Shown here: positions 49,759 to 54,703 of the stretch, one piece after another
How positions within the stretch are numbered: the first letter of the stretch is position 1
How the letters are laid out: every line of letters begins with the position of its first letter
DNA from: an uncultured Alphaproteobacteria bacterium
Lineage (GTDB): Bacteria; Pseudomonadota; Alphaproteobacteria; Rhodobacterales; Rhodobacteraceae
Assembly (NCBI GenBank): GCA_902570265.1
Contig: CACFXF010000001.1
Span: forward strand, 62,001-126,000
Length of the DNA stretch: 64,000 bases
Reading direction: 5' to 3'
Position numbers and translations under genes: made by a program
The notes under the pieces: generated by a model
The model's database searches: none
What the model saw: the letters and a program-made list of their open reading frames with translations, nothing else
Told to the model about the DNA's origin: nothing

Positions 49759-49779
49759 TAAAATTATAAAAGGGTGGAT

Positions 49780-51897
49780 ATGTTAAAGTCTATAAAAAAA
49801 TCAATAACTTGGGGTCATGAGAAACTTACACTTGAAACAGGAAAAATAGCACGACAAGCTGATTCATCAGTTATAGCAACTTATGGTGAAACTGTAGTAA
49901 TGGCTAATGTTGTTTTTGCGAAGGAGGCCAAAGCAGGCCAAGATTTTTTTCCATTAACAGTTAATTATCAAGAAAAATATTACGCAGCAGGTAAAATTCC
50001 AGGTGGTTTTTTTAAAAGAGAGGCAAGACCTACTGAAAAAGAAACTCTTACAAGCCGTCTTATAGATCGACCGATTAGACCCTTATTTGTTGAGGGTTTC
50101 AAAAATGAAGTACAGGTGACTTGTACAGTCTTAAGTCATGATGGAGAAAATGATCCAGATATAATTTCAATGATAGCAGCATCTACTGCACTTACACTTT
50201 CTGGTGCACCCTTCTTAGGTCCAATTGGGGCCGCTAGGGTTGGTTTTGTTAAAGACTCTTACGTTCTTAATCCATCAATAGAAGATATGGATAATATAAG
50301 GGAAAATTCTAAACAAAGGCTTGATCTTGTAGTAGCAGGAACACAAGATGCAGTTATGATGGTTGAATCCGAAGCTTATGAACTTAGTGAAAAAGAAATG
50401 CTAGGTGCTGTTAAATTTGGTCATGAACAAATGCAAAAAGTTATAGATCTAATCATAAGTTTAGCAGAAAAAACAGCAAAAGAACCCTATAACTTTATAC
50501 CTACTGTTAATAAAGAATTAATAAATAAAATAAAATCACTTGGTGAAAAAAATATTAGTAAAGCATTTTCAATTGCTGACAAACAAGAGAGACAAAACTC
50601 ATTAAGCGACGCTAAACAAAATGTTTTAGATAACCTTTCAGACGAAGAATTAGAAAATGAAGAACTAGATTATTGCTTTAAAAAAATTGAATCTGAAATT
50701 GTAAGATCTAATATCCTCAAAAAAGGAAAGAGAATTGATGGAAGAAAACTTGATAAAGTTCGACAAATTGAGAGTGAAACGAGATTTCTCCCAAGAACAC
50801 ATGGTTCTGCTTTGTTTACAAGAGGTGAAACTCAAGCGATAGTTGTTACTACTCTTGGTACTGGTGAGGATGAGCAAATAATAGATGCTCTTCATAAAGA
50901 AGGAAGATCAAAATTTTTACTTCATTATAACTTTCCTTCTTATTCAGTAGGAGAAACAGGAAGAGCTGTAGGACCAGGTAGAAGAGAAATAGGTCATGGA
51001 AAATTGGCATGGCGAGCACTACAAGCTGTTCTACCAAAAAGTTCTGATTTTCCATATACAATTCGCATTGTGTCTGAAATAACAGAGTCTAATGGCTCGT
51101 CTTCAATGGCTACTGTATGTGGTGGATCTTTATCTATGATGGATGCAGGCGTACCATTGAAATCTGCTGTAGCAGGAGTAGCAATGGGTCTCATTTTAGA
51201 AGGAAAAGAATATGCAGTTCTTACAGATATTTTGGGTGATGAAGACCACTTGGGAGATATGGATTTTAAAGTTGCTGGAACATCCGAAGGAATAACATCC
51301 TTACAAATGGATATAAAAGTTGCTGGAATTACCCCTGAAATAATGGAAAAAGCATTAGAACAGGCTAAAGAAGGAAGACTTCACATACTAGATGAAATGT
51401 CAAAATCAATCAGTAAACCTGGAGCATTTTCGAAATATGCTCCTAAAATTGAATCTCTAAAAATTGCAACTGATAAAATAAGAGAAGTAATTGGATCTGG
51501 AGGAAAGATGATTCGTGAAATTGTTGAAGTTTCAGGTGCAAAAGTAGATATAAATGATGAAGGAATAATAAAAATTGCGTCAAATGATTCTGATAAGATT
51601 AATAAAGCTATAGAGTTAATTAAATCTATAGTTGATGAACCAGAAGTTGGTAAAATCTATAATGGTAAGATAGTAAAACTTATGGATTTTGGAGCTTTTG
51701 TGAATTTCTTTGGCAAAAAAGATGGATTAGTACATGTTAGTCAGATTTCAACTGAAAGAGTGGCACATCCAAAGGACCTTCTTAAAGAAGGTCAAGAAGT
51801 TAAAGTAAAATTGATTGGTTTTGATGATAGAGGGAAAGTTCGTTTATCTATGAAAACAATTGATCAAAAAACTGGCAAAGAAGTAAAACAAAATTAA
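49780..51897 (+). CDS. pnp: Polyribonucleotide nucleotidyltransferase (PNPase)
   Basis: A 705-residue phosphorolytic 3'-5' exoribonuclease. Two RNase PH domains are seen (the first with [20 protein letters not shown], the second with [19 protein letters not shown], both only partly quoted), then a KH domain ([17 protein letters not shown]) and a C-terminal S1 domain ([20 protein letters not shown]). The catalytic DxxxDxxxxD is in the second PH domain. Start: ATG at 49780 with AGGG five bases upstream; an in-frame GTG two codons earlier would overlap that site. Confidence 0.97.
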
Positions 51898-51923: not shown

Positions 51924-52664
51924 CTATATTTTTTTTTCGAAGATTCTAAGGTAAATTTTGTTTGCTCTATGTATTATTTTTTTATCTTTTTGAGATATTT
52001 TTTTATTTGTTTTATCTGTATTGGTGCTAGTACTTCTACTAAAACCTGTTGTTTTATAAATTTCTTTGTACCAATGAACCCCCCAAATTCCATCATATTT
52101 TTTTGAACCAGAACTCCAATTGAGCATTGACATATAAAAAGGAATTTCTAGAAAATTACAAAGTTTTCTTAACGTAAGCTCAGGATTATTTTGCAGATCA
52201 TCTGCATCGATTATTAATGGAAAATAACCTAATCTATTATAGATAAATTCATATATCTCATAAAGTTGTTGAAACCCTAAATCTTTAAACTGATAGTTTT
52301 TATTTTTTTTTTTATAAGAATTTAAAACTAACTCTGGTTTTCTAATTAAAATGACATTGTTAAGAGATAAAATGAAATCTTTATAATAATTTTTTATCAT
52401 ATGATGTGTCATATGCTTTTGATATTGATATGGTTTATCTACTTGACCATTAATACAATAATCAGCAACTTCTTTATAATTGGAAAGTTGACTACTTATG
52501 ATTTTATCAAACATAGGATGTTGAATTCCAGTCTTTTTTAAATAGGCAGCATAAAATGGCTCATCTAGAATTTCAAAATCACTTCTTGTTCCAAAACTTC
52601 TCATAAGTGCCGTTGATAAATTTCTAGGTCCAGACCATACGGCTATACGTTTAATATTTTTCAA
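51924..52664 (-). CDS. Sulfotransferase-like protein paired with class IV aminotransferase
   Basis: A 246-residue P-loop protein of the sulfotransferase-like fold. The N-terminal AVWSGPRNLSTALMRSFG (residues 8-25) corresponds to the PAPS 5'-phosphosulfate loop but ends in SGPRNLST rather than the usual GxxxxGKS/T. Later segments are ILDEPFYAAYLKKTG, FILSLNNVILIRKPELVLNS and LGYFPLIIDADDLQNNPELT. It overlaps the upstream aminotransferase gene by 14 bases. The N-terminal half of plant proteins called branched-chain-amino-acid-aminotransferase-like has the same look, so the two proteins probably work together. Reaction unknown. Confidence 0.65.
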   Translation of the reverse strand: MKNIKRIAVWSGPRNLSTALMRSFGTRSDFEILDEPFYAAYLKKTGIQHPMFDKIISSQLSNYKEVADYCINGQVDKPYQYQKHMTHHMIKNYYKDFILSLNNVILIRKPELVLNSYKKKNKNYQFKDLGFQQLYEIYEFIYNRLGYFPLIIDADDLQNNPELTLRKLCNFLEIPFYMSMLNWSSGSKKYDGIWGVHWYKEIYKTTGFSRSTSTNTDKTNKKISQKDKKIIHRANKIYLRIFEKKI

Positions 52665-53553
52665 TTAAATCCTCATATGAATCTCTAAGTAGTTTCAAAA
52701 TAGAATCTTTATTTTTATATTGAATCTTATGACCATCTAAGTATTCTACTCTTGTTAATCCTCCAAAAGTACCAGTTAAAAAAATTTCATCTGCCGAGTA
52801 AGTATCTAACAAAGTAAAATTTTTTTCAAAGATAGGTATATTTAAGTCTTTACAAAGATTAATTACTTTTTTTCTTGTAACCCCGTTCATACAATAATCG
52901 CCCGTAGAGGTCCAAACTTCTTTTCCCTTTACTATAAATAAATTACAGGAATTAGTTGTATTTACAAAACCGTAAGGATCCAACATTAATGCTTCATCGC
53001 CTCCTACACGGCTTGCTTGAATACAAGCTAACACACAATTAAGTTTTGAGTGACTGTTTAACTTAGGATCTTGTATCATAGGAAGTGCTCTTACTTGAGG
53101 AACAGTTATTAGCTTAACGCCCTTTTTATTATCTTTCAGATATGGCTTAGAATGTTCCATAATTATAACATATGTAGGTCCAAAAATAGAAAATTCAGGG
53201 TGCTGAAATGGTTTGATTTTTTTTCCCCTAGTAACCATAAATCTTGCATAAACATCAGTATTCATATTATTAGAAATTCTTGTTTTCTCTAGTTGTTGAT
53301 AAATTTGATTTACAGAAAAATTAAAATTAATCTCAACAAGCTTTAAAGCCTCAAAAAATCTTTCCATATGATCTTCAAAAAATGTCCATTTTTTTTTGTG
53401 TAGTCTTAAACCCTCCCAAATCCCATCACCTAAAAGAAAACCACTATCAAAAACTGAAACCTTAGCTTCATCTCTATAAAATAATTTACCAGAAATATTT
53501 ATTTTAATTTTTGAATTTCTTTTGTCTTCTTTAGAACTGTGCGTGATAGATAT
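52651..53553 (-). CDS. Class IV aminotransferase (BCAT/DAAT-like), apparent non-ATG start
   Basis: A fold-type IV PLP enzyme of about 300 residues. Reading the frame upstream of its first ATG (53367) gives uninterrupted sequence with family motifs: KVSVFDSGFLLGDGIWEGLR (residues 31-50), then KKKWTFFEDHMERFFEALK. The PLP lysine is K170 in SHSKLNCVLA, and TSTGDYCMNGVTRKKVI and FLTGTFGGLTRVEYLDG complete the active site. The frame is closed by TAG at 53563-53565 and has no ATG, GTG or TTG before 53367. The best start is ATA at 53553, seven bases after AGGA (53564-53561); ATC at 53556 is the alternative. Starting at 53367 would delete the first beta domain. Substrate unknown. Confidence 0.78.
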   Translation of the reverse strand: MSITHSSKEDKRNSKIKINISGKLFYRDEAKVSVFDSGFLLGDGIWEGLRLHKKKWTFFEDHMERFFEALKLVEINFNFSVNQIYQQLEKTRISNNMNTDVYARFMVTRGKKIKPFQHPEFSIFGPTYVIIMEHSKPYLKDNKKGVKLITVPQVRALPMIQDPKLNSHSKLNCVLACIQASRVGGDEALMLDPYGFVNTTNSCNLFIVKGKEVWTSTGDYCMNGVTRKKVINLCKDLNIPIFEKNFTLLDTYSADEIFLTGTFGGLTRVEYLDGHKIQYKNKDSILKLLRDSYEDLIEKY

Positions 53554-53611
53554 GATAAAATCCTAACTCAATAAAATAATGTTAATTATAAAATATAACC
53601 TAAGGTAGAAT

Positions 53612-54703
53612 TTAAAGCCACCCAGATAATTCTTTATCTAAAATATTTGTCAGAGCTTTTATATGATCATCTCTATCATTTAAACATGGAATATATAGAA
53701 AGTCTTTTCCTCCAGCTTCCGAAAAACTCTCGGCTATTTCTTCATTTATTTCTTCTAAGGTCTCAACACAATCAGAAGAAAATGCTGGTGCTACGACAGC
53801 TATATTTATTTTACCTTTATTAGCTAATTCAGCCACAAAATCTACTGTGGAGGGGCCAACCCACTTTTCAGGGCCAAATTTTGATTGAAAAGTTGTTGTA
53901 AAATGGGATTTATCCCATTTAAGTCTTTCTGCTAGTAGTCTTGTTGTTTTTTGACATTGACAGTGATAGGGGTCTCCTGCCATTAAATATCTTTCTGGTA
54001 CACCATGATAAGAAACAACTAGATGCTGAGGCTTAAGTTTAGCTTTAGTATATGCTTCTTTAATTGAATTAGCTAAAGAATCCAAATAAAGATTGTTATC
54101 AAAATATGCTGGTACAGTTCTAAATGCTGGTTGCCACTTCATTTTCATTAAAGCTCTAAAAGCTTGATCGTTAGCTGTGGCAGTTGTTGGACCTGCATAC
54201 TGCGGATACAAAGGAAAAAAAATTATTTTTTCACAACCTAAAGACTGTAAATTTTTTATAGCCTTTTCAGTTGATGGATTTCCATATCTCATGCAAAAAT
54301 CCAAAATGACTTTATTCCCATGCTTTTTTTTAAAATAATTAGATATTTTCTTTAACTGAAGCTTAGTAGTAGTAAGTAGAGGACTTTCATTTTCTTTTTT
54401 ATTCCAAATACTTTTATATGCCTCTCCAGAAGAAAAGGGTCTTTTTGATAAAATAACGAGTTGTAGTAATGGTTGCCAAAGCCATTTTGGATAATCTATA
54501 ACTCTTTGATCAGACAAGAACTCACTTAAATATCTTCGCATTGACCAATAATCTGTATTGTCAGGTGTCCCTAAATTAGTAATAAGAATCCCAACTTTTG
54601 CCGAAGGTAATTGGGGATGTTCTTTATCCGCAAATTTTAACCTTCCTTCTCCCGGTTTTTCTAATTTCAACTGACTATCCTGATTTATAGAATTTTTATA
54701 CAT
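53612..54703 (-). CDS. hemH: Ferrochelatase
   Basis: A 363-residue ferrochelatase that inserts Fe(II) into protoporphyrin IX. Family motifs include GILITNLGTPDN, the metal-site segment VVSYHGVPERYLMAGDPYHC and the terminal glutamates in SDCVETLEEINEEIAESF. Length matches alphaproteobacterial HemH (about 350). An N-terminal extension of about 35 residues precedes the first strand. With hemF in this window it completes two late steps of heme synthesis, which serves the bc1 complex. It is 58 bases from the aminotransferase gene upstream of which no terminator is obvious. Confidence 0.93.
   Translation of the reverse strand: MYKNSINQDSQLKLEKPGEGRLKFADKEHPQLPSAKVGILITNLGTPDNTDYWSMRRYLSEFLSDQRVIDYPKWLWQPLLQLVILSKRPFSSGEAYKSIWNKKENESPLLTTTKLQLKKISNYFKKKHGNKVILDFCMRYGNPSTEKAIKNLQSLGCEKIIFFPLYPQYAGPTTATANDQAFRALMKMKWQPAFRTVPAYFDNNLYLDSLANSIKEAYTKAKLKPQHLVVSYHGVPERYLMAGDPYHCQCQKTTRLLAERLKWDKSHFTTTFQSKFGPEKWVGPSTVDFVAELANKGKINIAVVAPAFSSDCVETLEEINEEIAESFSEAGGKDFLYIPCLNDRDDHIKALTNILDKELSGWL

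Follow-up and report, generated by a model that had tools for sequence, protein, structure and literature searches.

A sulfotransferase-fold protein and a lysine-less class IV aminotransferase-fold protein are encoded by a gene pair conserved in Alphaproteobacteria and beyond

Background

The class IV branched-chain and D-amino-acid aminotransferases (e.g. 5mqz, 1i1l and 1daa) share their fold and phosphate cup with the first of the two proteins described here (henceforth AT-like), which differs from them in having Asn in place of the Schiff-base lysine, Thr or Ser in place of the N1-binding Glu, and Lys or Arg in place of the Tyr that contacts O3'. The closest described structure is that of an "aminotransferase-like protein" from Variovorax paradoxus (7z79), which resembles AT-like in fold and in its lysine-less NSHSR motif. 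We know of no sulfotransferase partner for the Variovorax protein, and a literature search found no paper on this structure or on its mutant (9j32). The second protein (henceforth ST) shares its fold and its PAPS-site motifs with the Sulfotransfer_5 family (PF19798), the sulfotransferase domains of CurM and olefin synthase (4gbm, 4gox) and the tyrosylprotein sulfotransferases. It is distinguished from these by its shorter length, by KHMxxH and WxxxWY motifs of its own, and by the AT-like partner that accompanies it in every proteobacterial genome tested.

In plants, proteins named "branched-chain-amino-acid aminotransferase-like" are said to fuse a sulfotransferase-like N-terminal half to a class IV C-terminal half; in comparison, the bacterial genes are separate and occur in either order. 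Our literature search returned nothing usable on the plant genes or on the bacterial pair, PF19798 being simply listed, and we came across no account of the pairing or of how general it is. Both fold families were already known, as, evidently, was the missing lysine to the depositors of 7z79 and 9j32. The present analysis turns the routine labels "aminotransferase class IV" and "sulfotransferase family protein" into one defined unit, and the pair merits bench work because the question can be put directly to two small soluble proteins. If plants do carry a fused form, the bacterial two-gene system would provide an easy way of finding out what an orphan plant protein catalyzes.

Results and discussion

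Organization of the locus

The window, a stretch of 64,000 nucleotides, belongs to an alphaproteobacterial genome of 2.16 Mb whose nearest named relatives are the uncultured single-cell genomes AG-891-A21 and AG-404-G18, followed by members of the Rhodobacteraceae/Paracoccaceae. Both frames of the pair lie on its minus strand (Table 1), between a ferrochelatase gene on one side (53612-54703) and a convergent pnp gene on the other (49774-51897). The ST protein begins MKNIKRIAVWSGPRNLSTALMRSFG, and the 14-base overlap of its gene with that of a class IV aminotransferase-fold protein, first noticed in a sequence-only reading of the window, is confirmed. Inspection of the AT-like frame revealed no ATG, GTG or TTG ahead of codon 63, and a TAG stop (53563-53565) lies just upstream of its 5' end. 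The most likely start, judged from the sequence, is therefore one of two adjacent codons, ATC or ATA, which are preceded by the sequence TTAGGA. A start at this point is reasonable, because the same TAG stop and the ATC-ATA are retained in the loci of the five nearest relatives and the residues that follow are conserved; the first ATG (53367) was rejected as it would cut off conserved sequence. Comparison with three close relatives gave dN/dS values of 0.09-0.26, indicating purifying selection on both genes.

Table 1. Positions of the gene pair and of its key residues and motifs in the window
Feature	Position	Strand	Evidence or conservation
AT-like, lysine-less class IV aminotransferase-fold protein, ~300 aa	52651..53553	-	PF01063 E 4.6e-36; start ATA 53553 or ATC 53556; stop 52651-52653
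ST, sulfotransferase-fold protein, 246 aa, TTG start	51924..52664	-	PF19798 E 2.7e-57
Overlap of AT-like and ST, 14 bases	52651..52664	-	both frames; overlaps of 1 to 16 bases common in relatives
AT-like Arg65, phosphate-cup arginine, kept	53359..53361	-	invariant 61/61; = E. coli IlvE R59 by motif
AT-like Asn166 (codon AAC), at the PLP Schiff-base lysine position	53056..53058	-	gap-free profile alignments; = N174 of 7z79, K in 9j32
AT-like Thr199 (codon ACA), at the pyridine-N1-binding Glu position	52957..52959	-	74 T, 10 S of 84
AT-like Thr226 of G-[IV]-T-R, phosphate-cup residue, kept	52876..52878	-	invariant
AT-like Thr262 of T-G-T, phosphate-cup residue, kept	52768..52770	-	82 T, 2 S of 84
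ST 5'-phosphosulfate-loop-like motif W-S-G-P-R-N-x-S-T	52611..52637	-	all but x invariant, 101/101
ST K-H-M-x-x-H (Lys83, His88), candidate catalytic Lys/His	52401..52418	-	K83 101/101, H88 100/101
ST 3'-phosphate-binding-like motif R-x-P-x-x-V-x-x-S (Arg108, Ser116)	52317..52343	-	invariant 101/101

The AT-like protein has an aminotransferase fold with a different active site

AT-like is a fold type IV protein. Its structure model (pLDDT 88.6), for which plasmid sequences were left out of the input alignment, matches 7z79 with a Z-score of 39.2 and true aminotransferases with Z-scores of 31-35. It misses the curated IlvE-type NCBIfam cut-offs (164 bits against 245.55 for TIGR01122; 197.5 against 363 for PRK08320). 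Profile alignments to archaeal branched-chain aminotransferases (5mqz/5cm0/5e25) run without gaps through the active site and place the family motif L-N-S-H-S-[KR]-L-N against I-K-S-L-N-Y-L-N, so that the lysine that carries PLP is replaced by Asn166. The assignment rests on these alignments together with the N174K mutant made by the depositors, while in a MAFFT alignment that included the two distant class IV enzymes encoded by the window's genome, the Lys of those enzymes falls beside Asn166 and not on it. Asn occupies this position in all of 84 members, in 61 of 61 sequences of a diverse set and throughout the tree described below (64 rows). At the position of Thr199, the two further class IV enzymes of this genome have Glu. 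Residue 170, which corresponds to the O3' Tyr of aminotransferases, is Lys or Arg, and the surrounding pocket motif NSHS[KR] is nearly invariant (signature NSHS[KR]L).

The same position had been picked out by the depositors of 7z79 (E 2e-68 to AT-like), as the residue that they mutated to Lys in 9j32, N174, aligns with Asn166. The Variovorax protein also carries a motif SSCNSTN, by which it appears closest to the AT-like clade that lacks ST (see below). AT-like thus combines the fold of the aminotransferases with a different active site. The routine label "aminotransferase" is probably wrong for it on the strength of these residues, and the database names "branched-chain" or "D-amino-acid aminotransferase" under which some members were deposited are probably incorrect.

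The ST protein and its probable donor

ST scores far above the Pfam gathering score for PF19798 (194.2 bits against 23.2). Modeled at pLDDT 94, it resembles tyrosylprotein sulfotransferase-1 with bound PAP (Z 13.9) and the sulfotransferase domains of CurM (Z 13.5) and olefin synthase (Z 13.5-13.7 for the two). On structural re-alignment, all of the 50 matches listed were sulfotransferases; nucleoside and adenylate kinases were also present in the fold search, lower down. The spacing of Arg108 and Ser116 is that of PAPS sulfotransferases. Two distant PF19798 members, one adjoining cysC in a gene cluster on a Dolichospermum plasmid and the other part of a Streptomyces NRPS cluster with cysC and cysD close by, keep Lys83, His88, Arg108 and Ser116, and the proximity of cysC suggests a dedicated supply of PAPS. 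Fold, motifs and the cysC neighborhoods together make PAPS the likely donor. A nucleotide-dependent step, which the sequence-only reading had attributed to this P-loop protein, is accordingly in keeping with its predicted fold and retained PAPS-site motifs.

APS kinase was considered as a gene that might track ST and was rejected, since it is present in 34 of 38 genomes with ST and in 18 of 19 without it. Counting against PAPS as donor, two complete genomes that bear the pair (G040 and G104; loci L019 and L152) yielded no APS kinase match above noise and thus may not make PAPS; both do possess sulfate-assimilation proteins of the PF01507 family. The genome of the window and two congeners encode a second, stand-alone APS kinase (G000:C39:6117-6566) in addition to one in a long frame.

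Conservation and context of the pair

PF19798 is present in 25 of 61 relatives, and in 17 of the 20 loci examined among those that possess it an AT-like gene lies within 1.5 kb of ST. A collection scan found AT-like in the same locus for 66 of 80 named ST loci. Where ST is not beside AT-like (14 genomes, 13 of them searchable), an AT-like gene was present elsewhere in all 13, one of these distant copies being split in two frames; three further cases (G022, G019 and G015) are likewise ST genes that are not beside AT-like, yet have it elsewhere in the genome. To cover the phylum evenly we used a sample of 299 genomes with thresholds of E <= 1e-20 for ST and E <= 1e-60 for AT-like. ST was detected in 22 and AT-like in 25; every one of the 22 ST genomes has both, adjacent in 16, and AT-like occurs in three of the 277 genomes without ST. 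A Fisher test of this co-occurrence gives p 2e-30, a naive value that ignores the relatedness of the genomes. Among the near-complete genomes of the family to which the window belongs, nine that are devoid of one gene are also devoid of the other, with a single exception (G025) that has AT-like only. As ST was not found without AT-like, whereas AT-like does occur without ST, ST appears to depend on AT-like and not vice versa.

The pair spans seven families. The pairing is not due to chance, and the two genes constitute a module that is conserved across families and beyond Alphaproteobacteria. This bears out the earlier proposal of a conserved two-part system for which no reaction has been described, and gene-pair conservation extends to genomes in which the copies are separated: many roseobacters retain both genes at a great distance from each other. 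The order of the genes was only partly as that reading had it. AT-like usually precedes ST, as in the window, often with an overlap of 1 to 16 bases or at close spacing, but this is not general: ST comes first in two unrelated genomes, one of the window's own family (G013) and one of another family (G104).

Within 10 kb on either side, no gene besides the pair is common to different families, which points to the pair itself as the unit; inference of a pathway from the neighboring genes was dropped for the same reason. No bacterial protein fusing ST and AT-like was encountered among the loci examined. Carriage of the pair by viruses or phages was also rejected: scans of viral contigs yielded no carrier, ST had no phage match, and the phage matches to AT-like were distant (27-29% identity).

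Functional interpretation

The pair very likely performs a reaction that has not been described. The explanation we prefer, tentatively and at just short of an even chance, is that ST and AT-like form one functional unit for PAPS-type sulfuryl transfer, with the lysine-less subunit responsible for binding or preparing the acceptor. The nucleotide bound by ST would carry a 3'-phosphoadenosine moiety and most likely be PAPS, whose sulfuryl group ST would transfer. AT-like would have given up Schiff-base catalysis and, with its phosphate cup retained, might bind a ligand that bears a phosphate, such as PLP, PMP, the adduct of either with an amino acid, or a small molecule that is phosphorylated. 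Its pocket, rebuilt around N-S-H-S-[KR], would thereby bind or prepare the acceptor modified by ST. The two may act as a heteromeric complex or in two tightly coupled steps; we infer a physical complex, and an acceptor that resembles an amino or keto acid. Counting in favor of one unit are the strict co-occurrence in the 299 genomes, the frequent adjacency there and the often overlapping starts and stops. Against a single complex stand the lack of a fused protein among the loci examined and the possibility that the genes co-occur because their products serve one pathway without touching each other.

The latter situation is somewhat unlikely. In it, AT-like would perform PLP/PMP chemistry that needs no lysine (e.g. 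enamine formation, or slow transamination with an external amine), and its product would be sulfated or sulfonated by ST as the next enzyme of a small pathway. This scheme agrees with the roseobacters that keep both genes far apart, and with the ST-less AT-like clade, whose genes share operons with those for an amino-acid ABC transporter and, often, for a ClC protein and a ProC-like reductase. However, the overlapping or closely spaced genes of most lineages suggest stoichiometric expression, and no obvious catalytic base replaces the lysine, residue 170 being Lys or Arg. The loss of Lys and Glu from all members, with fold and phosphate cup intact, could mark AT-like as a non-catalytic pseudoenzyme that senses or carries a ligand and leaves ST as the sole enzyme; we regard this as unlikely, because the near-invariance of NSHS[KR] is that expected of a new active site and because members without ST are found in operons. 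An active class IV aminotransferase acting alongside a sulfotransferase, as the sequence-only reading had it, is highly improbable. The PF01063 match and the fold would agree with it, but ordinary amine chemistry is unsupported, since Asn replaces the catalytic Lys and Thr or Ser the N1-Glu in every member examined; furthermore, the making of the N174K mutant implies a wild type without the lysine. With respect to ST, there is a small chance that it is not a PAPS sulfotransferase and uses another nucleotide, such as ATP, or CoA with its 3'-phosphate. The two genomes without APS kinase and the kinases recovered in the fold search speak for this alternative, whereas the uniformly sulfotransferase matches listed on re-alignment, the invariant Arg and Ser of the 3'-phosphate site and the distant members beside cysC speak against it.

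A more speculative reading concerns the metabolite itself. AT-like might work with a phosphorylated substrate, or with PLP or PMP in the absence of a lysine, and pass an intermediate (an enamine or an amino acid) to a PAPS-dependent ST. The outcome would be a new way of making a sulfated or sulfonated amino metabolite, such as cysteate via 2-aminoacrylate; we consider this a long shot. A PAPS:2-aminoacrylate sulfotransferase step to cysteate has been postulated in algae, and we know of no established gene for it. Such a step is used in a diatom metabolic model (PMC7990286) and would be a chemically attractive candidate for the pair.

AT-like genes without ST

In a maximum-likelihood tree of AT-like (64 rows), the ST-linked clades are accompanied by one ST-less clade (support 100/99), which lies beside them at the midpoint root. 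The members of this clade that have an annotated neighborhood (L186, L187 and L190; also L185, L188 and L189) are located on plasmids together with an amino-acid ABC transporter, suggesting that AT-like has a use of its own there. A ClC chloride-channel protein is encoded nearby in four of the six loci, a ProC-like reductase in three of the six, and a regulator in most. By their gene content, these loci suggest an undescribed operon for uptake or catabolism. Lone AT-like copies also occur on plasmids of Dinoroseobacter shibae, Ruegeria pomeroyi and Paracoccus seriniphilus (L183, L184 and L191), where their neighbors are TRAP transporter genes or a regulator.
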